A DNA stretch of 64,000 bases from an uncultured Bacteroidales bacterium (GTDB lineage Bacteria; Bacteroidota; Bacteroidia; Bacteroidales; Paludibacteraceae): positions 1 through 64,000 of the forward strand of contig CAIWCC010000246.1 of assembly GCA_903911085.1 (NCBI GenBank), read 5' to 3'. Positions 12,954-44,589 of the stretch are shown here, piece by piece. A program made the position numbers and the translations under genes. The notes under the pieces are model-generated. The model searched no databases, was not told the origin of the DNA, and saw nothing but the letters and a program-made list of their open reading frames with translations. Positions within the stretch are counted from its first letter, which is position 1. The number at the start of each line of letters is the position of its first letter.

Positions 12954-15209
12954 TTAATAAAGTATTATTTTATGAGTATCTATCTGCATTCCATTAATCA
13001 CTTTCAACAGGTAAACTCCAGCCGGACATTTTTCCGGATTTATCCATAATTTATTGCTTTCGATATTGACAGTTTTCATACAAATTCCATTAATTGAATA
13101 TAACTTAGCAGTTGCTCCTTGTACAATATCGTTACGTAGTATTAATTCAATTGTTCTAATTCCTGTGCCAGATTGAGGAATTAGCGAAACGAAACTTCTT
13201 TTATTTTCAAACGGGGATTTTACGTCGGTAACATTTAAAACAGCCGTTTTATTAGCCCAATCGTAAGACAACAATTTCGCACCAATTTTAAATATCCATA
13301 CATTGCTATTTTGACTTACAATGCTTACATCAGTTGAGGTAATATTTTTATCATTCCATGAAAATGCTACTGCATTGCGCCATGTTTTGGTCGTTTTTTT
13401 CAAATCTATCACATAGGTGGTATAGGCTGTACCTACGCCATTACGTGCTGTATTGTACCTGTCAGCAGTAACAATACTTACATTAGAAGTAGTTAGTGGA
13501 TTTATTATCATTTCTGAATAATCACCTTTAATTTTGAATTTATTATTCGATGCTACTACACTATCGGCAGTCTGTTGGGCATGAAAAAGCAATTCAAAAT
13601 TATGCACCGACGTACTAGCGATGGTATCCATTACCAAAGCCACACTTTCCGACTTGAGGTAAATCAAAGTCCGCTCATATTTGTTCACCGCCGGATAGCT
13701 GAGTGTAGCATCGCCTACCATAATATCAAAATCGGAGTTTGACTCCACCTTTACCATGGTGGGATATTTTTTGTCTACGCCTTGTGAGGTGTATGTCCAG
13801 TAGCTCAGCGAATAGGGTTGATCCAGCTGGCCTTTGGTATCTACGAGCAAGGTATTTTCGTACTGTGTCCGGCGCTGGATATAGCCGGCATTGCGAATCA
13901 GAAACTCCCCATTGCTAAAAATACTGAAACTGTTGGCATTGGGGTGTCCATGACTTGCCGTTCCTTCAAAAGCATTGTTTTGCACAAACTGAAGTCCTGC
14001 TGCCGGTCCACAGGTAAACGAAACCACAGAATTACCATTGACCCAGCTATCGCGGGCTGTGACAATACCATAATTGTCAAAGTGATGCCACGTAGGCAGG
14101 TTGGTGAATGCTTTGGAAACCACCGTGGCATCATATCTTAGAAGATTGAATGCAATGGCAGAATTTTCATAATTTACACCTTTGGCATCTGCCAGGTCTG
14201 CTTGCTGCTGGGCATATCCATCCCTTTTTTCTTTAGCTATTCCCCGGAGCAAATAATTAGGGCCATACCACAGGTACCTTGGACAGTCGCCTATATCAAT
14301 AACTTGCAAATTGCTGGTCCAGAAACTCGAAGGCAAGGCCATGTATATCTGGAACATGGAACTGTTGTTCCACCAAGCGCTGTTGTAGAAATTGTACGAA
14401 AGCAACGACTTGGTCAAATCAAAAAAGCGCATTTGAAAATCCATGTCGTACCCTCCGTAACTTACCCCTTCCGAAAAACCGCCATCGCTTCCCCGAACAC
14501 TGTCCAGAAACATAAATTTTTGCATAGCAGTATTAATCCATGGTTTAGTATCAAAACACTCATAAAATGCAAGCGATGCAACTCCCAATCCAGAGACTCT
14601 ACTACTAAATTGATTGGATAGGTAATAGTCCGTCCCTTTAGCAGAGGAACTCAACCATGTATTAAAAAGGTTTCCCTTTGTATTTAAAAATGCTATTATG
14701 TTAGATTTCAGCGTCGCATCCATTTCATTGTAACACCAGTCAAAGAACACACTCAGCCCTGTAAGATGGTGACCCGGCTCCAACCCCGGGGTAGAATAAA
14801 AAGAATCTGGAGCAGTCATTAAATAGGTGGCATAACCCTGTGCCTTAGATAGATAGGCTGCGTTACCCGATAATTTGTACACGATTGACAAATTCAGCAA
14901 CCTATCACCCCAAAAGCGCAAATCCGCACCTGCAGCTAAATCTGCAGCTACATTTGTAGTGGGTGGACTGGGGTATCTATTCACCGCATTAATAACATAA
15001 GTGTATAGGGATTTTAATTTGCCAGACGTTATTTGACTTTTCAATTGGTTGATACCCGCTTGCTCCAAATACAATCTGGGGTGAATGTTTTTTTTACTCT
15101 CAATAACAGTAGTTGTATAGGAAGTTTGGGCGAGTATCGTATTTTTATATAAAAAAGAAAAAATAAGAAGAAGTAAAAATACTAAAGTATGTTTTTTTTT
15201 CATTTTCAT
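12954..15209 (-). CDS. Heparinase II/III-family polysaccharide lyase with T9SS tail
   Basis: A 751-residue exported lyase candidate. Signal peptide residues 1-28. An N-terminal alpha-toroid domain (about 35-390, beginning HPRLYLEQAGINQLKSQI) is followed by a beta-sandwich carrying the family motif GHPNANSFSIFSNGEFLIRN and RTQYENTLLVD. The C-terminus is a T9SS sorting domain (KLYSINGICMKTVNIE, AGVYLLKVINGMQ), so the enzyme is probably surface-bound or released. Heparinase II/III proteins beta-eliminate uronic-acid-containing polysaccharides; alginate, heparin-type or other backbones are possible and the substrate cannot be fixed here. It is paralogous to the 640-residue protein at 33064-34986, which has no sorting tail. 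The middle of the gene is clearly richer in G+C than its ends. Confidence 0.8.
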   Translation of the reverse strand: MKMKKKHTLVFLLLLIFSFLYKNTILAQTSYTTTVIESKKNIHPRLYLEQAGINQLKSQITSGKLKSLYTYVINAVNRYPSPPTTNVAADLAAGADLRFWGDRLLNLSIVYKLSGNAAYLSKAQGYATYLMTAPDSFYSTPGLEPGHHLTGLSVFFDWCYNEMDATLKSNIIAFLNTKGNLFNTWLSSSAKGTDYYLSNQFSSRVSGLGVASLAFYECFDTKPWINTAMQKFMFLDSVRGSDGGFSEGVSYGGYDMDFQMRFFDLTKSLLSYNFYNSAWWNNSSMFQIYMALPSSFWTSNLQVIDIGDCPRYLWYGPNYLLRGIAKEKRDGYAQQQADLADAKGVNYENSAIAFNLLRYDATVVSKAFTNLPTWHHFDNYGIVTARDSWVNGNSVVSFTCGPAAGLQFVQNNAFEGTASHGHPNANSFSIFSNGEFLIRNAGYIQRRTQYENTLLVDTKGQLDQPYSLSYWTYTSQGVDKKYPTMVKVESNSDFDIMVGDATLSYPAVNKYERTLIYLKSESVALVMDTIASTSVHNFELLFHAQQTADSVVASNNKFKIKGDYSEMIINPLTTSNVSIVTADRYNTARNGVGTAYTTYVIDLKKTTKTWRNAVAFSWNDKNITSTDVSIVSQNSNVWIFKIGAKLLSYDWANKTAVLNVTDVKSPFENKRSFVSLIPQSGTGIRTIELILRNDIVQGATAKLYSINGICMKTVNIESNKLWINPEKCPAGVYLLKVINGMQIDTHKIILY

Positions 15210-15626
15210 AACTTATGCTTACTAATTGATTATTGATGTGATTTCATAAATGAATTTACTCAATGCAAAAAAAATACAGTATTAGTGAGATTTACATAAC
15301 CTATAGTGAAGCAATCTCAACTTTTGTATTGATCATAATTTCGCTCCTAACGGAGCTCTTAATACACAATTGACAATTATGCTACCATAATTGCGCTTCT
15401 CCGAAGCTTAATAAATGCTCCATTAGGAGGTAAATTATGGTAGTAATTATTAGTTCACAAGAATAAAAAGCTCCGTTAGGAGCGACATTATAAAAAGTCA
15501 AGACGACTTCAGTATCAAAATATTATTCAAAAATTCAATTTTGCATTAACATTTCATGTTTCTATAAAACTTTTTTCTTATTCGAAGAAACTAAGTATTA
15601 TTAAACCAATTTCACGCTTCTATAAT
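15210..15626. other. 417-base gap holding a fold-back element
   Basis: No gene is seen between the GH115 gene and the heparinase gene. Most of the gap is occupied by the nested inverted repeat listed at 15342-15484. The remaining bases are AT-rich without recognisable signals. Confidence 0.6.
15342..15484. repeat. Fold-back (MITE-like) element with nested inverted repeats
   Basis: Outer arms CGCTCCTAACGGAGCT (15342-15357) and AGCTCCGTTAGGAGCG (15469-15484) are perfect 16-base complements. Nested inside, CTACCATAATT (15382-15392) pairs perfectly with AATTATGGTAG (15433-15443), and the centre holds CTTCTCCGAAG and CTCC-ATTA-GGAG hairpins. The whole can fold into one long cruciform. The GCTCCGTTAGGAGC-type core is a form I associate with intergenic repeats of Bacteroidetes. 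It carries no gene, so it would be a non-autonomous or structural repeat. Confidence 0.75.
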
Positions 15627-18464
15627 TTAATTCAAATCAGGAATCTGATAAAATTTTCTATCAGCTTTAAAATCAACAAACAACTGATCAAGTATTATAT
15701 CCGGATCAATGGCGTAGAACTTCAGAACATGTTTTCCTGCTTTTTCTATTTTATGAGTAGTTGTCGTTCGTGACTGATTCCTCAAAACATTTACCTTCCA
15801 GTTCTCTTTAAATATATCTGATTCTGTTTCAATTATCTGAGGTTCTTCCTCATCAATGGCAACGGCATATCGCTTGTTTCGTCCATTGGCAGGATGATTG
15901 GGATACAAGGCGATACACACAGAAACTTCACCGATTTTTGTACTGTTAAACGCGTATTCTAATGCTGATTTTTTATTACCTGAGTCTACTTTTAAAACCA
16001 TAAAACTATGCCCTAATCCAGGAATTTCAGTTACGTGAACACTGTTCCGATTTTGACATTCATTTGCATTAAATGAAACAAAACCATCAGTCATAGGTTT
16101 TCCAATTTGATTGGGTAAGGTTTTAAATACCTCCAAATTAAAAATAAATTTTTCTGAACCGCTTTGAATAACAAAATGTCCTTTTTGTGAACTTCCGGAA
16201 ACTTTATCCCAATTTATTTTCAATTGAATCCTTTCCTCACCATTTAAGAGTTGTTTTTCTACCAATGATGTAACCCAAATCGGTTTTTGAGCAATGCTCC
16301 ACGTTACTATTTTTTCCGCTTTCTGATAAATCGTAAAAACATAATTATTATTAGTTGATTGAACGAAAGCAGGAGTATTATAAGTTTTTTGTGGTTGAAT
16401 AGGAGCGTTATGTCCATCCGCAAAAACTACAATTCCCTGCTGATTTGCAATGTTGACTTTCGGCAATTCCAAGCGTTGATAAACAGGCAATTTTCGTGGG
16501 TTACAATCCATCATTTCATTCCATTTCCCATCAGCTATTTGATGATTGAACACGTCTGTCAATTGTTCAATTTTATCAAGAGATAATTGACTTAACTTTG
16601 CGTATTCATTCGCACTGGGTAAATTCAAGGGTGCAAGCTCTCTATACATTTGGGCATAAAGCAACTTCTTATTTAGCAAAGATGCTCCCTGAACCGGATA
16701 TTTTACAAGTTCAAAAAAGGCATCTTTCCGGTTTACTGCCATCTTTTTTGATAATTCTTCTACCTTATCTTCAATAGTCTGATACTCCGAAATTCTTTTC
16801 TGTAACTCATTTCCAAAAGCAAATGGAGTAAACTCAGTGTTAATGACAGGAGTAAAACCTTTGGGAAATCCACTTGTTTGGATTCGACTCCACCCCATGT
16901 GTTCTGGTTTTCGTATAGTTGCCAAATGGTAATACTCTTTCATTATACATGATATTTCTGAAGCATATTTTTTTCCAAATTGTTGCGAAATCCAATTCTG
17001 AGTATGTGCCTGAACCGTTTTCTGATTGACGCTTTCAATATTCCATGCCAAGTCCAAAAACAACTCGGTAATGTATTCGGCAGGCTTCAGGTCACCAACA
17101 TTGAGAATCCACAATTTACGAGCATTGTATTCCCATGCCCTTTTCATTTCGGTAACAACCTGAGCTGGTGGGGTTGTACAAAGCCACAAATAGTCGTGTG
17201 GCGAGCCCCAGTATGAAGCGTGATAATAAACGCCACTTCCGCCACTTCGTGCTTGCTCCACTGGTGTTGATAAACGGCTAATATACCCAAAATTGTCGTC
17301 ACACCAAATCAAAGAAACATCTTCAGGAAGCTCTAATTTTCCGGTATTATAAATATCTAAAACCTCTTTGTATGGAATAAATACTTGCGGAATTTTGGAT
17401 GGCGTAGGATTTAAATAATTGCCGATAATTCCCCGTTGACTTTTCAGCACTTTATTGGTTAGTGTTACCTGTTCGTCCACAGTAGTTGCGCCCAGCATAT
17501 TTCCGTCGTGAAGCCCACGCATTCCAAGAGTATAAATATTTTCTGAGGAAGACAATTGTTTAACCCGGTCTATCCAGTAGTTGTCAACATTTTGAGCATT
17601 TACAGCATAGTTGTACTCACCAACTCCTTTCAAATGCCATTCGCTTGCACTGCAACGCATCATTGGCTCGCAATGCGATGTCCCCACTACAATACCATAG
17701 CGATCTGCCATCTCTTTATTCCCTTTTACAAGGAAAAATGGGACAGTGCTTTCGTGCATAGCCGGCCAAATTGTATTGGCACGAAGACGTAGTAGCAATT
17801 CGAAAACTTTTTGATATGCCATGGGGCCAATTACCCCTTTTTTGCTGGATTTGTCAAGTGTTTTGTTTGCCCAGGGCTCAATACCCCAATCTTCATCGTT
17901 AAGAAATATGCCACGATATTGTACAGAAGGAGCTTGAACTATATTTATAGTTGAATTTAGAGTAATCGTTTTTCTTTTATCCGGAATAACGTCAGCCCAC
18001 CAATTCCATGGTGAAACACCTGCCATGCGCGATAATTCGAGAATGCCATAAGCCGTTCCTCTGCTATCACTCCCTACGACTAATAACAATTTCTGTTTCC
18101 CATTCTTTTGAGAAATACACTTAATCCTGAATGCTTCCCACTTATTTTTGATATCTTCCGCAGAAAATTCACCTTTAGAGATTAGAGAATCAATGATGTT
18201 ATTAGAGCCAATTGTACCCGCAACGATAAGGTAAGACGGAGTCTTTGAAAAATTATTATACTGCTTTACAACCGCATCACCAATCGTTTTCATATCCGTT
18301 GAAAATAGCTCAATTGCAGTTTTTACCACTTCCTTTTCCCTTGAGTCAAATTGAATGGAGGTAGTGTGGTCTGTTCCAATTAAATAAAATGCATCAGATT
18401 TTTGAGAGAATACTACAGTTGAAAACAGGATAAATAGTAATGAAAGAATGTGTTTTGTTTGCAT
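15627..18464 (-). CDS. GH115 alpha-glucuronidase
   Basis: A 945-residue exported enzyme. Signal peptide residues 1-20 (ending VVFSQ). The family GH115 layout is clear: an N-terminal Rossmann-like part, then LSRMAGVSPWNWWADVIPDK, YRGIFLNDEDWGIEPW, the barrel with MRGLHDGNMLG and LIWCDDNFGYISRL, a helical region and a C-terminal beta-sandwich. Characterised GH115 enzymes remove alpha-1,2-linked glucuronic or 4-O-methylglucuronic acid from xylan-type or arabinogalactan-type chains. Length is normal. It lies 56 bases after the SASA-type esterase gene in the same orientation, so debranching and deacetylation are probably co-expressed. A T9SS tail is not evident. Confidence 0.88.
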   Translation of the reverse strand: MQTKHILSLLFILFSTVVFSQKSDAFYLIGTDHTTSIQFDSREKEVVKTAIELFSTDMKTIGDAVVKQYNNFSKTPSYLIVAGTIGSNNIIDSLISKGEFSAEDIKNKWEAFRIKCISQKNGKQKLLLVVGSDSRGTAYGILELSRMAGVSPWNWWADVIPDKRKTITLNSTINIVQAPSVQYRGIFLNDEDWGIEPWANKTLDKSSKKGVIGPMAYQKVFELLLRLRANTIWPAMHESTVPFFLVKGNKEMADRYGIVVGTSHCEPMMRCSASEWHLKGVGEYNYAVNAQNVDNYWIDRVKQLSSSENIYTLGMRGLHDGNMLGATTVDEQVTLTNKVLKSQRGIIGNYLNPTPSKIPQVFIPYKEVLDIYNTGKLELPEDVSLIWCDDNFGYISRLSTPVEQARSGGSGVYYHASYWGSPHDYLWLCTTPPAQVVTEMKRAWEYNARKLWILNVGDLKPAEYITELFLDLAWNIESVNQKTVQAHTQNWISQQFGKKYASEISCIMKEYYHLATIRKPEHMGWSRIQTSGFPKGFTPVINTEFTPFAFGNELQKRISEYQTIEDKVEELSKKMAVNRKDAFFELVKYPVQGASLLNKKLLYAQMYRELAPLNLPSANEYAKLSQLSLDKIEQLTDVFNHQIADGKWNEMMDCNPRKLPVYQRLELPKVNIANQQGIVVFADGHNAPIQPQKTYNTPAFVQSTNNNYVFTIYQKAEKIVTWSIAQKPIWVTSLVEKQLLNGEERIQLKINWDKVSGSSQKGHFVIQSGSEKFIFNLEVFKTLPNQIGKPMTDGFVSFNANECQNRNSVHVTEIPGLGHSFMVLKVDSGNKKSALEYAFNSTKIGEVSVCIALYPNHPANGRNKRYAVAIDEEEPQIIETESDIFKENWKVNVLRNQSRTTTTHKIEKAGKHVLKFYAIDPDIILDQLFVDFKADRKFYQIPDLN

Positions 18465-18520
18465 AGTAAATGTTGTTGAAACGGAGAAATAACATGAAGG
18501 AACGAATATTTACCCGATCT

Positions 18521-20077
18521 TTATTTGTTGATTTTATACACTTCACATCTCTTCCCGGCTGTGATCATAGGGAAATTATCGGTTCGGAAAGGAGATGCAG
18601 GAAGATCGGCACTGTTGAACAGATTACCTTCACTCCAGTTTGCCCAACCGTAACGAACAGCAATGGGTTTTACAACAGCATCTGCACTAACGATAATTTG
18701 ATTTCCTTTTATTTCGGCTTTGGCTGACACAAATTTCTTGTCTTCACCACAAATAGTAAATCCCATTAATTCTCCTTCCGATTTTAATCTATCGTAAACA
18801 TAATCAAATGACAAAAGTGCTTGATTGTTATTGAATTTTACGCTTTTATAGATCGGACCAGAGAAGGGAATATTGAAACCATAAACATTATTCAATGCGA
18901 TGTATGCCAATCGTTTCCCAACAGGTTCTTTTCTGGGTGGATGGATATTCTCCTTTTCTCCATTATCCATGGTGACAGCCATTCCGGTATGTTTTATCTT
19001 TTGCCATGTCAAGAGCTGAGCTTCGCGAAGTTCTGGCCAAATGGGTCTGTTTCTGGCATCTGCTCTTCCGTAATTGGCCAATTGAACAAAAAAGAAAGGC
19101 ATATCGGGATTTTTGAAATCGTTTCGCCACTCGCTAATTAAAGCCGGGAAAAGAGTACGATATTGTTCCGCTCTCCCGGAGTTATATTCACCCTGATACC
19201 ATATTGCGCCCTTTACAGAGTAAGGGATGCATCGCTCCAACATGGTGTGATAGAGTCCGGCAGGACGATTGAAGTTGTGTTCTCCCATTGGCATTTGCGG
19301 TCTGACTATATTTCTTACGCCAGCTTTTATGGAGTCTTCATACGTTTTTGTATCGACTTCGAATTTCGCAATAAGTTGACTTCCAAATTTGAGTGAAAAA
19401 TCGTCATAATTAGCCACAATTGGAGATGTGATTGTATCTTTCATTAGCCACTCACGTGTCATCCACGTTTCGGCACCAGATCCTCCTTTATAACAACAGA
19501 TTACCCCCACCGGGACATTTAATTTTTCCTGAAGATCCTTAGCGAAATAGTAGGCAACGGCAGACATTTCAGACACCCTGTTTTCGGCTGTCGCTGTGCG
19601 CCAATTCATATCACCTTTTGTAACGGCACCATCATATGGTTTGAACGGCACCATCACATAATGTATATTCTTATTGGTTGCATTAGCAGCTGCCTCTTTG
19701 CCTCCAAGAGATTCTCTTATCATAAAAGCCATATTGGATTGGCCTCCAGCCAACCAAACTTCACCCACATAAATTTCTTTGATTTTTATGGTTTCATTGG
19801 CTGAAACGACACTCATACTAAAAGGACCTCCCTCTTTTAAAGAACGAAGTTCAACGCTCCACTTGCCCGTTTCATCGCTTTTCGATTGTACCTGTTTCCC
19901 CTGAATATTAACTGAAACGCTTGTTGATGGAGAAGTTGTTCCCCAAACTAAAACTTTTGCATTTCGTTGAAGAACAGCACCTTCATTGAACAGTTCACCC
20001 AACTTAAGATTTTGAGCACCAGCACTAAAGCACAGAAGTGAAATAAAGCATGCTGCTATAAACGATTTTATTTTCAT
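18521..20077 (-). CDS. SASA-family carbohydrate O-acetylesterase
   Basis: A 518-residue exported esterase of the sialate O-acetylesterase (SASA, SGNH-like) type. Signal peptide residues 1-21 (ending AGAQN). The catalytic Ser motif VWLAGGQSNMAF, the Gly block YKGGSGAETWM and the downstream GAIWYQGEYNSGRA are all present. Despite the family name, members inside polysaccharide loci mostly deacetylate plant or microbial glycans, such as 4-O-methylglucuronoxylan. It sits between the CE12-type esterase and the GH115 gene; the order CE12, SASA, GH115 suggests a set that strips acetyl groups before glucuronate removal. Confidence 0.85.
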   Translation of the reverse strand: MKIKSFIAACFISLLCFSAGAQNLKLGELFNEGAVLQRNAKVLVWGTTSPSTSVSVNIQGKQVQSKSDETGKWSVELRSLKEGGPFSMSVVSANETIKIKEIYVGEVWLAGGQSNMAFMIRESLGGKEAAANATNKNIHYVMVPFKPYDGAVTKGDMNWRTATAENRVSEMSAVAYYFAKDLQEKLNVPVGVICCYKGGSGAETWMTREWLMKDTITSPIVANYDDFSLKFGSQLIAKFEVDTKTYEDSIKAGVRNIVRPQMPMGEHNFNRPAGLYHTMLERCIPYSVKGAIWYQGEYNSGRAEQYRTLFPALISEWRNDFKNPDMPFFFVQLANYGRADARNRPIWPELREAQLLTWQKIKHTGMAVTMDNGEKENIHPPRKEPVGKRLAYIALNNVYGFNIPFSGPIYKSVKFNNNQALLSFDYVYDRLKSEGELMGFTICGEDKKFVSAKAEIKGNQIIVSADAVVKPIAVRYGWANWSEGNLFNSADLPASPFRTDNFPMITAGKRCEVYKINK

Positions 20078-20111
20078 TGATTTGTATTTTTAGAATATGG
20101 TATTATATTTC

Positions 20112-20891
20112 CTACTTCAAATATTTTGTCAATGGTTTGACTTGCAGTTCACGAAGGCCTTTCACAAATTCTTCAGCCATTACAGTTGCACCTGTTTCGT
20201 TGAAATGTGTCATTTCTTTGATACCATTTGGGAAATTTTTGTTGACACCAGGCTCAAGAGTGGTAAATAGTTTTGTTGAACCTTCTTCACCCAGTTCTGC
20301 AATAATCTTCTCGCTCTTCAACTCCATGTCCACAAATAATAGTTTAGTATCCTCCGCCGCAATTTTACGACAAACTTCTGTATAACGTTTAAGGGTATGA
20401 ACCACTCTCCCATTTTCAAATTTACGTCTCGAAACAGGAGTACAAAGAATGGGGATTGCCCCTTTTGTTCTGACATCATTGATAAAGCTGCGGAGATTGG
20501 CTTCATATTGTTCCGGAGTAGTATGGCGATCTGGTTTAGAATTAGAATCATTGTGTCCAAATTGGATAACAACATAATCATTTGGCTGCACTTTGTCCAT
20601 TATCTTTTTCCATACCCCTTCAGTTTGAAAGGAGAGCGTGCTTCTTCCGCTCAGTGCATAATTGTCAATTGTGACTTCTGATTTAAAGAAATTGTGCAAC
20701 ATTTGACCCCATCCACGTGTAGGAAATGGTTCATCAAATGTTTTTCCGGTAATGGAATCCGTTACACGTTTTGAAAGCGGCTGATTTGTCATTGTAGAGT
20801 CGCCAGCCATATAAATGGTTACTTTCTTTTGTTCGGCTACAAATGCACAAAGTGTAATAATTGACAACAGTGATAAAATAAGTTTTTTCAT
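20112..20891 (-). CDS. CE12-type rhamnogalacturonan acetylesterase-like protein
   Basis: A 259-residue secreted GDSL/SGNH hydrolase. Signal peptide residues 1-19. Block I is MAGDSTMTNQ (nucleophile Ser), block II SGRSTLSF, block III VIQFGHNDSN, and block V EMTHFNETGATVMAEEF with the catalytic His. In relatives I know, the residue three before that His is Asp; here it is Glu, a conservative but unusual change. CE12 enzymes remove acetyl groups from rhamnogalacturonan or related pectic and algal glycans. It follows the GH2 gene by 48 bases and precedes the SASA esterase by 34. Confidence 0.85.
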   Translation of the reverse strand: MKKLILSLLSIITLCAFVAEQKKVTIYMAGDSTMTNQPLSKRVTDSITGKTFDEPFPTRGWGQMLHNFFKSEVTIDNYALSGRSTLSFQTEGVWKKIMDKVQPNDYVVIQFGHNDSNSKPDRHTTPEQYEANLRSFINDVRTKGAIPILCTPVSRRKFENGRVVHTLKRYTEVCRKIAAEDTKLLFVDMELKSEKIIAELGEEGSTKLFTTLEPGVNKNFPNGIKEMTHFNETGATVMAEEFVKGLRELQVKPLTKYLK

Positions 20892-33048: not shown

Positions 33049-33063
33049 TTGAATCAAATATGG

Positions 33064-35106: not shown

Positions 35107-37644
35107 TCATTCCCAAATAATTTTCAAAGTATTTTGATTGTTAGCATCCTGTATATCTATTATGTTTTTTGCCGATATTGAGAATTTATCAGTATTTATT
35201 TTAATTTTCTTTGCTTCTGAAGGTATCCTGATTTTTAAACTAGAGGTCGCACCTAAAGTTATTGTAAGTTGTTTTTCATCTAACTTTACTGAATCAATCC
35301 AACCTGTTGATTTTAAAATTGAAACCCCCTTTCCATTGTTACCAATCAAAAAGGCTTCACGTGTATCATCAGGGATTGTAAATTGAAAATTAAAACTCAG
35401 AGTATCATTATCTAAGCAGTAAGATTGATTCAGAGCACAAAGTAAATTTTCTCCATATATCTTCACTTTGTGTACATAATCTTTTGCAGATCCACTAAAT
35501 CCAATAACCTGACCAAATGCACTCATTCTATCTATTTGTTCGTACATTTCAGGAGAATCACCCACCTTTCCGATTATTTTCAACTGTTGTCCTTCAATAT
35601 AAGAGGAAACCATTTTAGCTTTCGACACTGATTTCCCTACCGTTTCTCTGTCTTTATTTGATAACATTTTAAGATCGCCCCAAAAACCATTACCTGCAAT
35701 CAAAGAAGTATTTATGTTGTAACGCTGAGCATAAAAAGGTGCAATATTCTGAGGATACTGAGCATAAGTAAGTACTTCTGGAGTAAGAACATTTCCCAGT
35801 TGGTTTATTATTGTTCTCATCGATTTAGTTCTAAACGTGCTATAATCTCCATATCCTGATGCACCATTGTTCATCCAAAATAATTTACCTTCTTGCAGCG
35901 GCATCAAGCCTATCATACAGCGTTCCGGTTCTGTTATATCGATTTCAATTTTTACATCCGGATTGTATTCTCTTAGTTGCTTCATACAATTAGTTACAAC
36001 AAAAGGAAGTAAATAATTATACCTATCAATAATATCTTTTCTATTAAAACTACTATCGCCATGCCTAAGGTTTGGTTGTGCACTATTGAAAGTATTTATT
36101 GCATCCCATTTAAAATATCTGATTCCCTGGTCAATAAGTTTTTTATGATCTTCAACTATTAATTTTGAAAAATCACTTACAATATCAAAAACCGGATTAT
36201 CCCATTGTCCAATAGCAGGAGTACCATCTATTGACCTTATTACCCACTCGGGATGTTGTTTATATCGTAATGTAGTAGTATCAATTCCTATTAGCGAAAA
36301 CCAGACTCCGAGTTTCATATTCTTTTCTTTTGCCTTTTCAAGGAATGGTTTTAAACCATTCGGAAGCCGAGTTTTGTTATACTCCCACTGCCCTAATTTC
36401 TGCTGCCAACCATCATCCAATATAAAATAATCCATTTTCATTTGTGATGCATAATCCATTTCTTCTAAAATCCGCGATTCTGTAAATACTTCCCTTACGT
36501 CCTTTCCTATTAACTGCGCATTCCGTTGCATACCCCATGTATTATAATAGAAGCTTGGTTTCCGTGCAACTTTACTTTCGGTAATTTGATTATTCAAATA
36601 GTTTCGAATCATCTCACCAGGATTTGCACTTTTATTTATAAAACCCAATGCGCTCCATACGGTTTCATAACATCCAACTGTAGGTATACTTTCATTCTCC
36701 AGATATCCACCTCTAATTATTTCATTTGAAATAGATGTATAAGATTTAGTTTTGCAATGATTAATTCCAATAAAAAAGAAATCCTCATCTTTCATTGTAT
36801 AGCCTTGATTATAAGTAGCACCTTGCTGTACATCTATCATGCTTGCAAATTCACAGCTTCCTCCCATTTGATTTGATCTAAGACCTTTTATTCCATCTTG
36901 CGAGGCATGTTCATATGTTGAAAGAATAGTATATTTATCTAGTGTAGTTAAATCAAAAGGACCTTTTACAATTAGATTCTGACCAATAGATATAGAATGT
37001 GGGATAGTGGCGGTGTGAAACATATGACACGCAGCCAAATTTCTATCCTTTACACGATTATCATATGTCCTGTTTGGATCTAACTTGTTAAGTATCTCAT
37101 TGCCATAACTGGCAATTCTTATTTCGGTTACCGTATCGCTTGCTGCTATATCAGAGAATGAGTATTGAGGGAAAACAAAGTGCAACTTATTTTTCACTTT
37201 GTTGAATTTAAACTTATCAGCTTTGATTGATTTTAATAAAAGCTGTTCTCTTATGAGTGTTGAGTTTGAAAAATATTGCTGTAAAATGACAACTTCAAGA
37301 TCTTTAATTTCATTTCTTCCACAAATTGAAATTGAGAGTTCTGTGCCACCATTATCCATTTTTCGTGTTTGGACATCTCGAAACTGCCACAAAGGATCAT
37401 TTGCTGTTATTTTCTTGTTGTTGATTATGAACTCGAAATATGGTTTTTCTATTGCAAATTTTAGCAGTTCCCTTTGTCCCTGCTTATCAAATAATGACGA
37501 AACCTGAACAGTATTATGTTCAAAACAGAATTCTTTTTTTAATAACTCGTTTTCAATTAAAACTGTTTTTTTGATCCCAAAGAGAGTAGGAGAATTAAAA
37601 AAAAATGACAACAGCAATAGATTTCTACAAATTGATTTTTTCAT
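35107..37644 (-). CDS. GH36-like (clan D) alpha-glycosidase
   Basis: An 845-residue exported glycosidase, first gene of the long minus-strand run. Signal peptide residues 1-23. After an N-terminal beta-sandwich, a (beta/alpha)8 barrel shows the clan-D features DYFILDDGWQQKLG, MKLGVWFSLIGID, the nucleophile region YFKWDAINTF and a later acidic EIDITEPERCMIG containing a candidate acid/base. It ends in a C-terminal beta-domain. GH36/GH27 enzymes remove alpha-linked galactose or N-acetylgalactosamine; a divergent specificity is likely because only the core motifs match. A promoter-like element and an inverted repeat lie directly upstream. Confidence 0.7.
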   Translation of the reverse strand: MKKSICRNLLLLSFFFNSPTLFGIKKTVLIENELLKKEFCFEHNTVQVSSLFDKQGQRELLKFAIEKPYFEFIINNKKITANDPLWQFRDVQTRKMDNGGTELSISICGRNEIKDLEVVILQQYFSNSTLIREQLLLKSIKADKFKFNKVKNKLHFVFPQYSFSDIAASDTVTEIRIASYGNEILNKLDPNRTYDNRVKDRNLAACHMFHTATIPHSISIGQNLIVKGPFDLTTLDKYTILSTYEHASQDGIKGLRSNQMGGSCEFASMIDVQQGATYNQGYTMKDEDFFFIGINHCKTKSYTSISNEIIRGGYLENESIPTVGCYETVWSALGFINKSANPGEMIRNYLNNQITESKVARKPSFYYNTWGMQRNAQLIGKDVREVFTESRILEEMDYASQMKMDYFILDDGWQQKLGQWEYNKTRLPNGLKPFLEKAKEKNMKLGVWFSLIGIDTTTLRYKQHPEWVIRSIDGTPAIGQWDNPVFDIVSDFSKLIVEDHKKLIDQGIRYFKWDAINTFNSAQPNLRHGDSSFNRKDIIDRYNYLLPFVVTNCMKQLREYNPDVKIEIDITEPERCMIGLMPLQEGKLFWMNNGASGYGDYSTFRTKSMRTIINQLGNVLTPEVLTYAQYPQNIAPFYAQRYNINTSLIAGNGFWGDLKMLSNKDRETVGKSVSKAKMVSSYIEGQQLKIIGKVGDSPEMYEQIDRMSAFGQVIGFSGSAKDYVHKVKIYGENLLCALNQSYCLDNDTLSFNFQFTIPDDTREAFLIGNNGKGVSILKSTGWIDSVKLDEKQLTITLGATSSLKIRIPSEAKKIKINTDKFSISAKNIIDIQDANNQNTLKIIWE

Positions 37645-37649
37645 ATTTT

Positions 37650-37709
37650 TTTGATGATATTTTTATGCTGCAAAGTAAGGGTTTTATACTTACTACTACT
37701 ATCATCAAA
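37650..37709. promoter_or_regulatory. Inverted repeat flanking the operon promoter
   Basis: TTTGATGATA (37650-37659) and TATCATCAAA (37700-37709) are perfect 10-base complements placed on either side of the -7-like element at 37671-37678, in the 76-base gap between the HTCS stop and the first operon gene. A looped or dimeric operator for the HTCS is a reasonable guess; a folded leader is the alternative. Confidence 0.45.
37671..37678 (-). promoter_or_regulatory. -7-like element of the main glycan operon
   Basis: Reads TTACTTTG, then CAGC, on the minus strand, one base off TAnnTTTG. It lies 27 bases before the ATG at 37644. Gaps between the following genes are short down to about 15.6 kb, so this may drive a very long transcript. 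Confidence 0.5.
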
Positions 37710-37720
37710 ATTTCAAATAA

Positions 37721-40700
37721 TTAATCAGGATTATCGGATATATGTTTTTTCTCATTATTTACGTATTTGGTAGGCGAAAATCCAAAATGTTTACGGAATG
37801 TAGATGAAAAATGTATTAAACTATTGAACCCAACTTTTTCAGAAACTTCAGTTATTGAAAGATCAGTCTCCATTAGCATTTTAGCTGCTAATTGCATCCT
37901 TACGGACTTGACATACTCCAAGGGAGAGAGGTTCGTAACAGCCTTGATTTTTCGATATAAATTGGCACTACTCATATTTATCTCATCACAAAACTTTTCA
38001 ATATTTAAATCGGGGTTGTCAATATGCTTTTCAACAACTTTGTAAAGTTTCTGCATAAACCTGTCATCTGCCGAAATAACTTCAACCCCCATAGATTCCA
38101 ATGAAAATTGTTTTCCATACAAATTCTTCAGATTTTCTCTAGACAAAAGTATATTCTTAATTTTCAACAATAAAATATTGCTGCTAAATGGCTTTGTAAT
38201 ATAATCGTCAGCTCCAAGTTCAAGTCCTTCTTTCATTTGCAACATCGTAACACGTGCTGTAAGTAGTATAATTGGAATATGGCTTGTATGAATATCCTCT
38301 TTTAGCTTTTTGCATAATTGGAGTCCATTCATTTCAGGCATCATAATATCACTAATAATCATATCAGGCATATGGTTGATGGCAAGTTCAACGCCTTCTT
38401 TGCCATTTGAGGCTTCTAATACCCTATTATTACCCAAACACGATTTGATATAAGTTCTGAGTTCTTTGTTATCTTCTACAACAAGAATAGTATATTTTTT
38501 AGATTTAACATCTGTCAAATCAACTTGGTCTTCTAATAATACCTCAGGATACAATTTTATATTTTCACTATCCTGATAATTCTCAATTATTTCATTAGAT
38601 TCTAAATGATTATTCCCATAAGGGATAATCATTTTAAACGTTGCCCCAGAGTTACTCTCAAATTCTGCCCAAATGCTTCCACGATGTAAATCAACTAATC
38701 CTTTAGTCAAACTTAAACCAATTCCAGAACTGCTTTCTGTTTGTTCATTTGGATTGTATATTTGATAAAACGGGTTAAAAATGTTATCAATTTCATTTTC
38801 TGGGATTCCTTCACCGCTATCACGAAGTGTAATTAACAAATATTTTTCAGCCCTAAGATACACATTAGAATTATGCGTCAAAGCACTCTTTTTTAAATTC
38901 TCATCTATACTTATATATTCAAGCTTTAATTCAATTTTACCTTTATTTGGAGTGTGTTTAAATGCATTTGATAATAAATTCAATAATATCTTTTCGAATA
39001 ATCCTCTGTCATACCATAAAGGTTGTGACTCTGTTATAATGTCTAATTTTAATTGTATCTCTTTTTTTGCAGCGAGTTCACTAAATGCTAATATTATTTC
39101 TTCAGTAAATTTTTCGAAATGACCAGCTGCTGCCCTTAACACAAATTGACCCGTTTCTTGTTTTCTAAAGTCCATAAGCTCATTAACCAATAACAATAAC
39201 CTTTTTGCATTCTGATACATTAGAGTCAATTGCTTATTAAGAAAAGATGGGGTGGTTGATTTCTCTAAAATATCTTCCAAAGGTCCAATTATTAGAGATA
39301 GTGGAGTTCGTAGTTCGTGTGAGAAGTATGTAAAAAGATTAAGCTTTGCCTGATGTAATTCCTCTTGCTGACCTTTTAAAGCAAGTTGATATTCTAAATC
39401 ATGCTTAATACGATAATATCGAATAATAAAATATGCTATAAACACTAAAATAGACATGTAAAAAAGAATTGCCCACCATGTCCACCAGAATGGCGAAGAA
39501 ATATTTATTATCATTGATGTACCAACCTCATTCCATTTTCCATCACTATTTGACCCTTTAACTTTAAAAACATATTTGCCCGGACTTAAATTTGCGTAAT
39601 TGACAGTTCGGATATCATTTATATGATTCCATGTATTATCAACTCCAACCAACATATACGCATATTTGTTTCTACCTGAATTTATATAGCTTAATGCACT
39701 ATACGTTATTGTAATATTATTTTCATTATGCTTTAAATTAAGGACTTGATTATTATCAATATCCATTTTAAGGGGCGTATTGTTAATTTTCACATTATTT
39801 ATTACAACAGGAGGAATAAATTTATTTGGTTTAATATTATCTGGATTAAAAGAAATAAACCCATTATCTCCACCAACGTAAATAGTAGTATTATCTCTCG
39901 TAACTATTATAGAATTTTGTGAGAACTCTTGAATGTTGATTCCATTCGTGTAGTCAAACGTTTTACACACTCCTTTAAAAAAGTCAACCTGAGAAATGCC
40001 TTTGCGTGTAACCACCCAAATTCGTCCACGTTTATCCTCCGTTATACTACAAACTTTATTGTCTTTAAGCCCATTCTTTACAGTGAATATTTTTGCCATA
40101 TTAGATTTAAATCTTATTGCATTAAGACCTCCATCTGCTGTTCCAATCCAAACAATCTGGTTTTTATCTATATAAATTGCCGAAATCTTATTTCCTGATA
40201 ACTTATTTTTTTCTGACAATGAATTATATTCAAGGACTTGTCCATTTTTATAAAAGTATAAACCATTGCTACGTGTTCCAATATAAACACCTCCCGTCTT
40301 ATCATACTCCAAACATGTAATTTGGGCTACATTAAATTTTTTATCATTTTTTAGCGGTAAATCTAATGCTGAAATTTTACCATTTTGAATTTTCTGTAAT
40401 CCATGAGAAGAATAGGTGCCAAATGTTAAAATTCCATTAAAATCACGTTTAATTGAATAAATAGCACTCCCAATATTATAGGACTTTATATATTTTTTGG
40501 CGTTTGTATCAAATTCAAAAAGTTTACCACGAAAAAGTCCAATATATAATTTATTATCTTCTGCAAACAGACTTTTCACATTATTTTCTGGAAAAACATC
40601 TGGATTAGATGTTTTAATACATGGAAAGTATTGATATGAGTTATCTCCAGTATTATAATGAATAATACCATTGGCTTCAGTTCCAATCCATAATCCGTCA

Positions 40701-41788
40701 TTGGATTCTTGCATTGGGCCAATAATCCCCAAAACTTGCTTGTTTAAATGTGTGTCGTAAAAACGAAATGAATTACCTTGATAGTTAAAATAATTTATAC
40801 CTCCTGAATACGTTCCCACCCAAACACCTCCAGCATTATCAACACATAAGGCTTCGACAGCATAATTACTCAGTCCACCTTGCCCAAACCCTTTCTGATT
40901 ATACACTTTAAATGTTTCACTTTTAGGATTAAAAATATTGAGTCCATTATAGGTTCCTATTAGCAAATTTCCCTCATGATCAAGGCATATTGCTTTTATT
41001 GAGTTACTACTTAATCCTTTTGTAGTTGAAGTTGAATAATACTTTAGTATTTTTTTTGTTTTCAAATCCAAAAGTCCAAAACCCTGATCTGAAGTACCAA
41101 ACCATAAATTTCCACTTTTATCTTTAGTGATTAGTTTTATTGACAATTTTCTAGAAGTACCGTTTTCATTTAAGATAATTTCTGATACTTTATTTGATAA
41201 AATACTGTAAAACACTAAATTTGAAATGCCAGTTCCTAATAAAAGTTGTTCATTATTTTGAATAATACTATTTACTCTAATTGATAAAACTTTTCTCAGA
41301 TTAGTTTGTTCCTTTGAGTAATCCAGAAGAAATAATCCATCTTTCTTCCCAATCCAAATTTTTTTATCGGACGTAGGCAAGATACAGTCAATTTCATTCA
41401 AATCTGCTGTATTACTTTTTAAATTAATAATGTAATGTCTAAAAGTTTTCGTATTTCTATCAAAACAATTCAATCCATTTGTTGTTCCAACCCATATATT
41501 CTGATTACTATCTTCTGAAATACAACGAATATATCCATCGCTAATTGATGTAGAATCCGATTTATCATGTTGAAATACTTCAAAATCATAACCATTAAAA
41601 CGATTTAAACCATCTCTTGTGCCAAACCACATATATCCTTTACTGTCTTGGTAAATGGCAATCACTGATAACTGTGAAAGACCATCTTTGACAGAAATAT
41701 TCTTAAAAATAATATCATTCTGATTTACAGCATTTAGCCCAATAATAAAACCAAAAATGATAATGAGGAATAAAAATTTGGGATGCAT
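37721..41788 (-). CDS. Hybrid two-component system (HTCS) regulator
   Basis: A 1355-residue one-protein sensor and transcription factor. The ATG at 41788 is chosen because a perfect -7 element (TATATTTG) lies just upstream at 41808-41815, inside the longer reading from 41848. Signal anchor 1-20; periplasmic two-component beta-propeller repeats (SVKDGLSQLSVIAIYQDSKG and many DGLxxFN blades) to about 690; a Y_Y_Y domain; a membrane span (WAILFYMSILVFIAYFIIRY); histidine kinase with FSHELRTPLSLI (phospho-His near residue 823), N box and GIGLSLTKGL; receiver domain with Asp in ISDIMMPEMNG (near 1146); AraC-type HTH at the C-terminus. All key residues are intact. HTCSs bind a breakdown oligosaccharide in the periplasm and activate the adjacent locus. 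Confidence 0.92.
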   Translation of the reverse strand: MHPKFLFLIIIFGFIIGLNAVNQNDIIFKNISVKDGLSQLSVIAIYQDSKGYMWFGTRDGLNRFNGYDFEVFQHDKSDSTSISDGYIRCISEDSNQNIWVGTTNGLNCFDRNTKTFRHYIINLKSNTADLNEIDCILPTSDKKIWIGKKDGLFLLDYSKEQTNLRKVLSIRVNSIIQNNEQLLLGTGISNLVFYSILSNKVSEIILNENGTSRKLSIKLITKDKSGNLWFGTSDQGFGLLDLKTKKILKYYSTSTTKGLSSNSIKAICLDHEGNLLIGTYNGLNIFNPKSETFKVYNQKGFGQGGLSNYAVEALCVDNAGGVWVGTYSGGINYFNYQGNSFRFYDTHLNKQVLGIIGPMQESNDGLWIGTEANGIIHYNTGDNSYQYFPCIKTSNPDVFPENNVKSLFAEDNKLYIGLFRGKLFEFDTNAKKYIKSYNIGSAIYSIKRDFNGILTFGTYSSHGLQKIQNGKISALDLPLKNDKKFNVAQITCLEYDKTGGVYIGTRSNGLYFYKNGQVLEYNSLSEKNKLSGNKISAIYIDKNQIVWIGTADGGLNAIRFKSNMAKIFTVKNGLKDNKVCSITEDKRGRIWVVTRKGISQVDFFKGVCKTFDYTNGINIQEFSQNSIIVTRDNTTIYVGGDNGFISFNPDNIKPNKFIPPVVINNVKINNTPLKMDIDNNQVLNLKHNENNITITYSALSYINSGRNKYAYMLVGVDNTWNHINDIRTVNYANLSPGKYVFKVKGSNSDGKWNEVGTSMIINISSPFWWTWWAILFYMSILVFIAYFIIRYYRIKHDLEYQLALKGQQEELHQAKLNLFTYFSHELRTPLSLIIGPLEDILEKSTTPSFLNKQLTLMYQNAKRLLLLVNELMDFRKQETGQFVLRAAAGHFEKFTEEIILAFSELAAKKEIQLKLDIITESQPLWYDRGLFEKILLNLLSNAFKHTPNKGKIELKLEYISIDENLKKSALTHNSNVYLRAEKYLLITLRDSGEGIPENEIDNIFNPFYQIYNPNEQTESSSGIGLSLTKGLVDLHRGSIWAEFESNSGATFKMIIPYGNNHLESNEIIENYQDSENIKLYPEVLLEDQVDLTDVKSKKYTILVVEDNKELRTYIKSCLGNNRVLEASNGKEGVELAINHMPDMIISDIMMPEMNGLQLCKKLKEDIHTSHIPIILLTARVTMLQMKEGLELGADDYITKPFSSNILLLKIKNILLSRENLKNLYGKQFSLESMGVEVISADDRFMQKLYKVVEKHIDNPDLNIEKFCDEINMSSANLYRKIKAVTNLSPLEYVKSVRMQLAAKMLMETDLSITEVSEKVGFNSLIHFSSTFRKHFGFSPTKYVNNEKKHISDNPD

Positions 41789-41807
41789 AGAAAATTGTTT
41801 TTTTTTG

Positions 41808-41815
41808 CAAATATA
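41808..41815 (-). promoter_or_regulatory. -7 element of the HTCS gene
   Basis: Reads TATATTTG on the minus strand, a perfect TAnnTTTG. It implies a very short 5' leader (about 15 bases) before the ATG at 41788 and argues against the upstream ATG at 41848. Confidence 0.55.
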
Positions 41816-41932
41816 TAAATAATCAGACTTAAAACAGATAAAAACCATGAAAATATTCTTAATTAATACTTTTTGATATTTTGGTATAATAAAATGATAT
41901 TTTGAAATAGTATATTTTGTTACATTTAAGTT

Positions 41933-41940
41933 TAATTTTG
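41933..41940 (+). promoter_or_regulatory. -7 element of the GH105-CE7 operon
   Basis: TAATTTTG on the plus strand matches TAnnTTTG and is followed by CAG. The leader before the GH105 ATG would be about 85 bases. No -33 TTTG sits at the usual 19-21 base spacing, which is common for activator-dependent promoters. Confidence 0.45.
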
Positions 41941-42028
41941 CAGTATCATAAAAGTGAATAAATATGAGATATTCTGATATACTAATTCTATTTTTTTTTA
42001 AGTTTAAATATTTAAATCAAATACATTA

Positions 42029-43267
42029 ATGGTAAAAATAATTATTAATAGCTCTGTGATGTTAATTCTATTTCTGTCTCAATCTTTTTACGTTCAAAGT
42101 CAGGATGATATGAGTATTGTAAAAGGTATTGCAGATAAAATATTAAAGGAAAATGAAATAGGTTTCATTGGTAAAACTACAAAGACTTACTACCCTTCAA
42201 CTGAATCAATTCCTGCTGATGAAGATGTCTTTTGCAAAAGTAAATATGCTGATTGGCATTATAGCATGGGAGTGCTTGATATGGCCATGCTTAATCTGAG
42301 TAGAATGACAAATAATCACGCATATTCACAGTTTGTACTCAATCATATTGATTATTGCTTTGCAAACAAACCGTACTTTGCCAACAGAAAAACAAAATTT
42401 CCTGGTGGTCCATTCAATTCACTATTACGTTCTGATGAACTTGATGACTTTGGTGCAATGGGAGCGGCGATTATTGATGTAAATAAAATTTCTTCCAAAA
42501 AAGAATATACAGATTTTATTCAACTTGCAGCATCACATATAATGAAAAAACAACCCCGTTTAACGGATGGAACACTTGTACGGACTTGGCCTTACAAATT
42601 CACACTTTGGGCTGACGACCTTTATATGGGTGTATCATTTCTAGCAAGAATGGGCAAATATAGTCAAAATAATATTTATTATGATGATGCCATTAAGCAG
42701 GTTCTTAACTTTAATAAATATCTATGGAATCCAACTAAGGAATTATATTGCCATGCATATTATGCTGACTTAGATTGTGTTGGAGGGGCACATTGGGGAA
42801 GATGCAATGGATGGGTAATGCTGGCAACTGTTCATTTGTTGAATTCATTACCAGAGAATTATCCAAACCAATCGAAAATTATTGACTTGTTGAAACGTCA
42901 TATAACGGGCGTTTCGCACTATCAGGATAGTGAAGGGCTTTGGCATCAATTGCTTGATAAAAGTGATTCATACAGCGAAACATCCTGTTCAACCATTTTT
43001 GTATATAGTATTGCTCGCGCCATTAATCAGGGGTGGTTGGATAAACGATATGCATCTATTGCACTCAAGGGTTGGGATGGTCTTAGAAAACAAAAAATCA
43101 CATCAGATTTTATTATTAAAGATATTTGCATTGGTACGGGAATTGGAACGGATCTTACTTATTATTATTTAAGACCCAAGAAAGACAATGATATTCATGG
43201 TATGGGATTAATAATAGATGCCGGATTAGAAATCATTAATCTAAAGAAAACATTAAATTTAAAATAA
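42029..43267 (+). CDS. GH105 unsaturated glucuronyl/galacturonyl hydrolase
   Basis: A 412-residue exported enzyme (signal peptide residues 1-25, ending YVQSQ). The alpha6/alpha6 barrel of GH88/GH105 is evident: SKYADWHYSMGVLDMAML, SDELDDFGAMGAAIID with the catalytic-type Asp, LWADDLYMGVSFLARMG, the GGAHWGRCNGWVMLATVHLL block and HYQDSEGLWHQLLDKSDSYSETSCS. These enzymes remove the 4,5-unsaturated uronic acid left at the non-reducing end by polysaccharide lyases. That makes it the natural partner of the lyases on the other strand. It is divergent from the HTCS and 5 bases upstream of the CE7 gene. Confidence 0.9.
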   Translation: MVKIIINSSVMLILFLSQSFYVQSQDDMSIVKGIADKILKENEIGFIGKTTKTYYPSTESIPADEDVFCKSKYADWHYSMGVLDMAMLNLSRMTNNHAYSQFVLNHIDYCFANKPYFANRKTKFPGGPFNSLLRSDELDDFGAMGAAIIDVNKISSKKEYTDFIQLAASHIMKKQPRLTDGTLVRTWPYKFTLWADDLYMGVSFLARMGKYSQNNIYYDDAIKQVLNFNKYLWNPTKELYCHAYYADLDCVGGAHWGRCNGWVMLATVHLLNSLPENYPNQSKIIDLLKRHITGVSHYQDSEGLWHQLLDKSDSYSETSCSTIFVYSIARAINQGWLDKRYASIALKGWDGLRKQKITSDFIIKDICIGTGIGTDLTYYYLRPKKDNDIHGMGLIIDAGLEIINLKKTLNLK

Positions 43268-43272
43268 AACTT

Positions 43273-44589
43273 ATGAAACTGAAAACATCGTATTTGCTGA
43301 TTATTTTCTTATTGTTAAACACTTTATTGCTTCAAGCAGCAGGTAAACCTCTAATTATGATTACTCCCGATCATTCTGATTGGAGGTATAAAGTGGGTGA
43401 AAAAGCATTATTTGACATAAGCATTACTCAGGATAATAAACCACTTAATGATATTAACATCAAATATACTATTGGATTTGAAAAACAAGCACCCTATATT
43501 ACAAAAGAAATAATATTAAAAGATGGAACTCTAAGGGTTGAAGCAGAAGGAATGAAAGTTCCCGGATTCCTTACTTGTAGGGTTTACCTGACTTTTGAAG
43601 GTGAGCGACTGAATAACCTAACCCAAATAGCATACGATCCTGAAAAAATCGTTCCAATTACTACTGTTCCAAAAGATTTCAATGATTTTTGGAACAAAGC
43701 TCTGAATGAAAATAAAAAGATTCCAATGGATCCGCTTCTTACATTAATGCCCGAGTATTGCTCAGAAAAAGTAAATGTTTATCAGGTTGGAATTCAAAGT
43801 TACCGCCTCAATGAGAGAATATATGGGATTCTATCTGTTCCAAAAAAAGAAGGCAAATATCCTGTTGTTCTTCAACTGCCCGGAGCGGGTGTACATAAAA
43901 TCAAACCAGACTTTGCACCAATAAATTCTCTGGTAGAAAAAGGGTTTATTACTTTGCAGATAGGTATACATGGTTTGTCACTGACACAAGACGAGAAAGT
44001 GTATTCAGATTTATTTGCCGGTTCAATGAAAAATTACATGTATTCTAATCTCGACAATAAAGATGATTATTATTATAAGCGTGTGCTGGTTGGATGTGTA
44101 CGGGCTATCGATTATTTAGAAACCATACCTCAGTATGATGGAAAAAATGTGGTAGTTTGGGGCGGAAGTCAAGGGGGCGGTCTAACATTAGCAACCACCG
44201 GTCTTGACTCACGTGTAAAATGTTATGTTTGTTTCTATCCTGCACTTTGTGATCATTTGGGATACACTGTTGGAAGAGCAGGTGGATGGCCTCACATGTT
44301 TTCTGCAGAACATCCCGAAAATCTAAACGATCCAAAAAAAATGGAAACATCCCGATACTACGATGCAATTAATTTTGCACGAAATATTAAAGTTCCCGGA
44401 TTTATTTCGTTTGGATACAATGATTTGTCATGTCCAATTACATCAATGTATGCAGCTTACAATACAATAACTGCTCCTAAGGATTTACTCATTGTAAAGG
44501 AAAATGGACATAAACGTTCACCAATTCAAAATGCTGAATCAGAAAAATGGTTATTTTCTAAACTATTGTTGCCTGTTAAAAGTTTTTAG
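43273..44589 (+). CDS. CE7-type acetyl (xylan) esterase
   Basis: A 438-residue exported alpha/beta hydrolase, signal peptide residues 1-22. An N-terminal beta domain (about 25-125) precedes the AXE1/CE7 domain beginning TTVPKDFNDFWNKALNENKK. The nucleophile elbow VVWGGSQGGGLTLATT, the acid in GYNDLSCPITSMYAAYN and the His in KENGHKRSP form the triad. CE7 enzymes deacetylate short acetylated oligosaccharides; a periplasmic role on imported fragments is likely. Transcribed with GH105. Confidence 0.88.
   Translation: MKLKTSYLLIIFLLLNTLLLQAAGKPLIMITPDHSDWRYKVGEKALFDISITQDNKPLNDINIKYTIGFEKQAPYITKEIILKDGTLRVEAEGMKVPGFLTCRVYLTFEGERLNNLTQIAYDPEKIVPITTVPKDFNDFWNKALNENKKIPMDPLLTLMPEYCSEKVNVYQVGIQSYRLNERIYGILSVPKKEGKYPVVLQLPGAGVHKIKPDFAPINSLVEKGFITLQIGIHGLSLTQDEKVYSDLFAGSMKNYMYSNLDNKDDYYYKRVLVGCVRAIDYLETIPQYDGKNVVVWGGSQGGGLTLATTGLDSRVKCYVCFYPALCDHLGYTVGRAGGWPHMFSAEHPENLNDPKKMETSRYYDAINFARNIKVPGFISFGYNDLSCPITSMYAAYNTITAPKDLLIVKENGHKRSPIQNAESEKWLFSKLLLPVKSF

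Follow-up and report, generated by a model that had tools for sequence, protein, structure and literature searches.

Polysaccharide utilization loci (PULs) serve for reading which glycans bacteria eat, and the locus described here raises the question of which glycan that would be. It occupies positions 12954-44589 of a 64,000-nucleotide stretch of DNA (the window) from an uncultured Bacteroidales bacterium of the Paludibacteraceae (assembly GCA_903911085.1, contig CAIWCC010000246.1, forward strand), the window starting at the first base of the contig. Judged by its sequence, the locus is a real, well-organised PUL built on lyase-type enzymes. On balance, with modest confidence, we read it as a single PUL whose target is a heteropolysaccharide that contains glucuronic acid, carries O-acetyl groups and is unsulfated. 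An extracellular polymer of bacteria or algae is more likely than xylan, alginate or a glycosaminoglycan (GAG), and we would give no single polymer more than a slim chance.

Several features argue for this reading: an intact co-directional run with SusC/D and a hybrid two-component system regulator (HTCS); lyase-type signals from two heparinase II/III (HepII/III) proteins that keep the catalytic Tyr and His, and from a pair of jelly-roll proteins; a YteR-like GH105; no sulfatase; SusC/D kin, and a paralogue on contig C250 of the same genome, near lyases; and an enzyme set that recurs in another genome (G592:C12). Known kinds account for the transport and accessory enzymes, while the presumed chain-opening enzymes stay below cut-off in the libraries searched; the two small jelly-roll proteins could prove to be a new lyase family and reveal which glycan is eaten. 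A literature search found no published description of this gene set.

Layout and enzymes of the locus

According to the list of open reading frames (ORFs) and their translations, 15 complete genes encoding 259-1375 amino acids fill the interval as two divergent runs. The 13 minus-strand genes are given here in their order from the HTCS, followed by the plus-strand pair.

37721-41848, minus: HTCS (Reg_prop, Y_Y_Y, HisKA, HATPase, Response_reg, AraC-type HTH)
35107-37644, minus: GH36-like glycosidase with altered acid/base region (PF02065, melibiase, 3.1e-19)
33064-34986, minus: predicted HepII/III (PL15/PL35-like) lyase (PF07940 5.7e-11; DUF4962 6.6e-11)
31513-33057, minus: putative parallel beta-helix protein (by reading of the sequence only)
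28252-31473, minus: SusC-like TonB-dependent transporter (PF13715, PF07715; plug 2.9e-20)
26590-28224, minus: SusD-like binding protein (PF07980 2.8e-31)
25573-26472, minus: jelly-roll protein, candidate periplasmic lyase (PF14099, sub-cut-off)
24331-25554, minus: jelly-roll lipoprotein, candidate surface endo-lyase with a DUF5018-like N-terminal stretch
20940-24311, minus: GH2 glycosidase with PA14 domain (PF02837/PF00703/PF02836, PA14; 7xyr 4.4e-27)
20112-20891, minus: GDSL/CE12-like acetylesterase (PF00657 1e-17; PaeY likeness 4.4e-13)
18521-20077, minus: SASA-type acetylesterase (PF03629 1.3e-19)
15627-18464, minus: GH115 alpha-glucuronidase, BtGH115A-like (PF15979 1.8e-128; 5by3 3.8e-214)
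12954-15209, minus: HepII/III protein with a type IX secretion system (T9SS) sorting tail, presumed secreted lyase (PF07940 4.8e-9; TIGR04183 5.3e-7)
42029-43267, plus: GH105 unsaturated uronyl hydrolase (PF07470, GH88/GH105, 1.3e-74; 3k11 5.8e-64)
43273-44589, plus: CE7 (AXE1) acetylesterase (PF05448 1.5e-45)

The minus-strand genes are spaced 6-120 bp apart, except for 417 bp ahead of the last one, and the divergent plus-strand pair lies 180 bp from the HTCS gene. Two extra ORFs (139 and 155 amino acids), antisense within the HepII/III and GH2 genes, were treated as spurious. Adjacent SusC and SusD accompanied by carbohydrate-active enzymes give the interval the arrangement of a PUL, and the SusC/D, HTCS and T9SS genes would also indicate a Bacteroidota host. 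The gene classes named by an earlier, sequence-only reading of this DNA hold at these 15 ORFs, with Pfam agreeing for most; the beta-helix protein that it listed (31513-33057) is putative, by reading, and has zero Pfam matches at E up to 1. Among the 15 proteins Pfam found no sulfatase and no backbone enzyme for ulvan, alginate, xylan or rhamnogalacturonan I (RG-I), bearing in mind that Pfam merges some polysaccharide lyase families; the NCBIfam scan behind the TIGR04183 and PaeY results covered ten of the proteins. Alginate and ulvan were dropped as targets because these backbone enzymes are lacking.

Both HepII/III proteins fall within the superfamily, with PF07940 scores of 36.5 bits (12954-15209) and 42.8 bits (33064-34986) against a cut-off of 24, and they are 32% identical to each other. 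The protein at 33064-34986 matches 3a0o (4.5e-19) and the PL35 chain 9o3q (1.8e-16), and HepII/III similarity extends to PL35 and dermatan sulfate epimerase. Aligned to 3a0o, both window proteins have the Tyr of EGxxY opposite Tyr365 and the leading His of HxH opposite His531. PMC12088678 lists the Tyr and His positions of 3a0o as catalytic and a His-Asn pair for several alginate-active relatives; neither window protein has that pair. The protein at 33064-34986 is isolated, matching at 1e-25 in four of the 294 other genomes of the order at 24-31% identity. Across the 6.25-Mb genome, the HepII/III C-terminal domain is matched 18 times.

For GH115 the best chain is BtGH115A (5by3, E 3.8e-214), with a best stretch of residues 31-667 of 945 only. 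Five other GH115 chains, two of them named xylan alpha-1,2-glucuronidase, score 7e-131 to 2e-85, and ranked by E-value the window enzyme is closer to BtGH115A than to any other solved GH115. BtGH115A is reported to act on arabinogalactan (PMC9063842, PMC13059095); one of these papers adds that glucuronate linked to xylan is no substrate for it and questions the linkage (PMC9063842). A target other than xylan gains from this ranking, and we dropped xylan because its backbone enzymes are lacking and GH115 is nearer BtGH115A. A BtGH115A-type enzyme beside HepII/III proteins, here and in G592:C12, is also a caution against taking GH115 as a xylan marker.

The uronyl hydrolase is nearest to 3k11 (5.8e-64) and YteR (5.5e-34), with the GH88 chain 5noa at 3e-11; it is closer to GH105 than to GH88 and, by sequence, is a YteR-like GH105. 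GH105 enzymes work on lyase products, and 3k11 is a protein of a B. thetaiotaomicron RG-I PUL. The GDSL esterase (20112-20891) resembles the pectin acetylesterase PaeY far under the model cut-off, and its CE12 label comes from that likeness. These enzymes support the earlier proposal of a lyase-type PUL whose target is a uronate glycan that is acetylated and branched with glucuronate.

The accompanying proposal of galactose-like side chains is weaker. The GH36-like protein (35107-37644) keeps the KWD nucleophile motif, but its acid/base region is altered, and the nearest chains of the GH2 enzyme are mixed, with beta-glucuronidase 7xyr best and beta-galactosidases lower. WxSDxTD is the GH36 acid/base motif; where it stands in others, all three full-length members of the window protein's group have a motif of the FWMNNGASxYxDY type. 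Since WxSDxTD was found in just two of four sampled GH36-like proteins, the other two having no match to the pattern, this difference is a lead only. Two of the 294 other genomes have full-length GH36-like relatives (45% and 43% identical). A PF07470 protein and what reads as a hexuronate-type transporter are encoded close to one of them; the neighbourhood of the other includes a beta-helix protein that matches GH141 below cut-off. In genome G602 a Cas9-like protein, so called by reading, is encoded in the vicinity of the GH36-like gene (L040:30-3482).

The jelly-roll pair

The two jelly-roll partners are 58% identical. By reading, 24331-25554 has a lipobox-like LLGSC and 25573-26472 has no lipobox; the DUF5018 match at the N-terminus of the former (0.005) is below cut-off. 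Both had been put forward as lyase candidates, which holds in part: 25573-26472 alone matches PF14099, at 29.2 bits just under the cut-off of 29.9 and so outside the family proper, but its partner, like a Verrucomicrobial relative, has zero lyase-model matches in Pfam at E up to 1.

Neither 59 relatives outside its own genome (35 of them of the same genus) nor 394 further genomes from the phylum yielded the jelly-roll protein. Among 84,980 species genomes a relative occurs at one locus (L011), in a metagenome-assembled genome (MAG) of Verrucomicrobia subdivision 3, 54% identical; that scan used two 7-residue patterns, and relatives with neither pattern escape it. The 187 other genomes in the class of this MAG hold none. 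Genome sets overlap across the jelly-roll (59 and 394), GH36-like, SusD, GH115 and HepII/III surveys, and in the last four at most 2-4 candidates per genome were scored. On these sequence searches the pair is a very rare family, above no cut-off in the libraries searched. PL8, GH28, GH43 and GDSL genes surround the Verrucomicrobial copy, with GH28, alpha-fucosidase, arabinofuranosidase-type and sulfatase genes farther out on its contig, and on a different contig of that MAG a GH115 adjoins a PF07470 protein.

We modelled the mature L011 domain, aligned with the two window domains, and obtained a nearly all-beta structure (pLDDT 47.8, pTM 0.54). A Foldseek search of the PDB with this model placed the PL20 glucuronan lyase 2zzj on top (E 6.9e-5, probability 1.00, TM score 0.31, 16% identity), followed by alginate lyase 7w18 (0.014), the GH131 protein 3w9a (0.016) and heparinase I 9grw (0.022), in a list that also includes many unrelated beta proteins. 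The E-value of 2zzj is about 200-fold better than that of the runner-up, likewise a lyase. A PDB sequence search with a single jelly-roll sequence and a 3-row profile gave nothing credible and no match to 2zzj, a solved PL20 member. A MAFFT alignment of three jelly-roll members with ten PF14099 proteins has compatible ends; being forced, it is no test. The low-confidence model and the sub-cut-off PF14099 match together suggest lyase activity, and we favour seeing the pair as a candidate new lyase family, one related to PL20/PL13. A further step, possible though on the doubtful side, is that the pair and its Verrucomicrobial relative make up a new family of polysaccharide lyases whose target is an acetylated glucuronate polymer with no described degradation pathway, and that this family has passed between Bacteroidota-like and Verrucomicrobial bacteria.

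Related loci and genomic surroundings

SusD kin at a strength of at least 1e-60 occur in four of the 294 other genomes of the order, at five loci. Within 20 kb, one (L062) has two HepII/III, a PF07470 protein and, by BLAST, a CE7; another (L063) has two PL8, PF07470 and, by BLAST, SASA; a third (L065) has PL8. PL8 or HepII/III thus adjoin in three of the five, two of these with PF07470. The other two have GH20, GH123 and BNR (L064) and BNR and FGE (L066). In the window's own genome, the SusD paralogue on C250 accompanies three Pfam-confirmed PL8, four PF14099, four HepII/III and one PF07470 protein, and that on C10 accompanies HepII/III, GH95 and, by BLAST, SASA. The C250 stretch (G000:C250:36000-88600; L017, L018, L067) is a second large lyase locus of the same genome, with SusC/D and an HTCS.

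GH115 kin at 1e-120 are present in 33 of 295 genomes, the window's own included; we compared the neighbourhoods of ten of the 42 other listed places, plus G687:C266 and the window genome's own C230. In G592:C12 (L089/L100), from another family of the same order, GH115, HepII/III, GH2, CE7, GH105-type and GH5 genes stand together, with a beta-helix match just under cut-off. The earlier statement that the combination matches no locus its author recognised was therefore overstated; because much of the remaining gene combination recurs elsewhere, novelty rests on the jelly-roll pair, and the target may be a new glycan. The nearest full-length GH115 outside the genome (L088, genome G297, 46%) sits with RGL11- and PcRGLX-type lyases, a GH35 and a GH88/105-GDSL-GH43 fusion. 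GH2 is present at L090 and L091, and G687:C266 pairs GH115 with SASA. In L092-L097, six loci that include some short contigs, a small BLAST panel found no further common enzyme. The window genome's C230 (L048) is another GH115 locus, with sulfatase-like, GH28-like and GH2 genes (by reading or BLAST).

The GC content of the locus (35.1%) is like that of its surroundings (34.8-35.9%), so composition gives no sign of lateral gain. The neighbouring parE (46676-48574) is present in 38 of 39 other genomes of the genus, and this locus is absent from one parE flank (about 14-15 kb) in all 12 sampled relatives. In 11 of the 12 this flank carries tadA, identified by reading and in several cases with other genes in between, where the window has aroA and the PUL; one flank (L081) has a different SusC/D pair (29%/23% identity) and another (L085) a GH2 at 23%. 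The comparison hints at an exchange site. Directly beside the PUL, at 9807-12828, are three tandem genes that look similar by reading (350, 353 and 270 amino acids); the second has a weak T9SS tail, and none has a Pfam family above cut-off. Toward the contig end next to the PUL, at 342-4693, lie mobile-element-like genes (Toprim/AAA, RteC) and, by reading, a lysozyme-like one.

Weighing the target glycan

Which polymer would require this set? One answer is a plant fraction of the RG-I or arabinogalactan type, capped with (4-O-methyl)glucuronate, with the jelly-roll proteins in a binding role or as side-chain enzymes. BtGH115A as the nearest GH115, 3k11 and YteR as the nearest chains of GH105, the PaeY-like esterase, the GH2 and the G297 locus all fit it. 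We nonetheless hold it unlikely: among the 15 proteins no model for RG lyase, GH28, GH78 or GH106 matches, two HepII/III proteins are present, and the SusC/D kin are mostly of lyase kind. An ordinary GAG or heparosan-type PUL, with PL13-like jelly-roll and HepII/III lyases and with esterases replacing sulfatases, is somewhat less likely still. It accords with heparinase I among the Foldseek matches, with the HepII/III likeness to PL35 and dermatan sulfate epimerase, and with SusC/D kin beside PL8 and PF07470 proteins and a C250 locus that is GAG-like in look; but the uronyl hydrolase is nearest GH105 rather than GH88, sulfatase and hexosaminidase are both missing among the 15 proteins (the GH20 at 56822-58438 is not part of the locus), and GH115 is not known to have a role in GAGs. 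Compatible with any of these targets, and somewhat unlikely, is the view that the jelly-roll proteins are glycan-binding or GH131-like and that HepII/III alone cut the chain. Surface glycan-binding proteins are usually encoded directly downstream of SusD, exactly where the pair lies, GH131 ranks third by E-value, and PF14099 support is weak; set against this are the top-ranked lyase fold match with its lead over the next, also a lyase, and the tandem arrangement of two copies, one with no lipobox by reading.

Several observations weigh against our preferred reading of an acetylated glucuronate heteropolysaccharide. PF14099 is touched by one of three jelly-roll members, under cut-off; the L011-domain model is weak (pLDDT 47.8, TM only 0.31 to 2zzj), a first AlphaFold model from a full-length alignment reached pLDDT 35.8 and was unused for the fold search, and hhalign against four own-genome PF14099 proteins gave a probability of 5.7%, which is no support. 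Neither HepII/III protein retains His311 or Arg314 of 3a0o, and the neutralising Asn of PL35, placed with some uncertainty by numbering offset and phmmer alignment, is Asp in 33064-34986 and Gln in 12954-15209, so the pair lacks the PL35 residue set and one or both proteins may be inactive. Two of the five SusC/D-kin loci are without PL8 or HepII/III over their 20 kb, the nearest outside GH115 sits among rhamnogalacturonan-lyase-type proteins, and the sulfatases on the Verrucomicrobial contig mean that the target of that relative may be sulfated.

If the preferred reading is right, the HTCS would sense an oligosaccharide and switch on the operon, probably also the divergent GH105-CE7 pair. The jelly-roll lipoprotein would act at the cell surface, cutting the polymer endolytically by beta-elimination, and SusC/D would import the oligomers, after which CE7, SASA and GDSL esterases would remove acetyl groups and GH115 the alpha-glucuronate branches. 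Shortening of the chain would fall to the other jelly-roll enzyme together with the HepII/III lyases, GH105 would remove unsaturated uronate, and GH2 and the GH36-like enzyme would finish the remaining residues. Glucuronan is O-acetylated in some bacteria, and the top fold match points to it, but GH115, GH2 and the GH36-like enzyme imply a branched heteropolymer.

Among known systems, the glucuronan lyase 2zzj is the best fold match of the jelly-roll model, from which it differs in its 16% identity and low TM score to a low-confidence model and in having no PDB sequence match. BtGH115A is the best match of the window GH115, although the window enzyme need not share its substrate, decorated arabinogalactan. 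The PL35/PL15 lyases (9o3q, 8khw, 3a0o) share sequence similarity and the catalytic Tyr and His with the window HepII/III proteins, which differ by Asp/Gln at the neutralising Asn and by the absence of the 3a0o His311/Arg314. G592:C12, itself uncharacterised, has no jelly-roll pair and no GH36-like match in its stretch, and its HepII/III is barely alignable to those of the window; it does share GH115 (43%), HepII/III, GH2, CE7 (43%), a GH105-type enzyme (31%) and, farther along, a SusC-like gene. Set beside Bacteroides heparan sulfate and GAG PULs, the locus has GH115, GH105, acetylesterases and a GH36-like enzyme and is without a sulfatase, while sharing with them an HTCS, SusC/D, a combination of jelly-roll and HepII/III candidate lyases and an unsaturated uronyl hydrolase.

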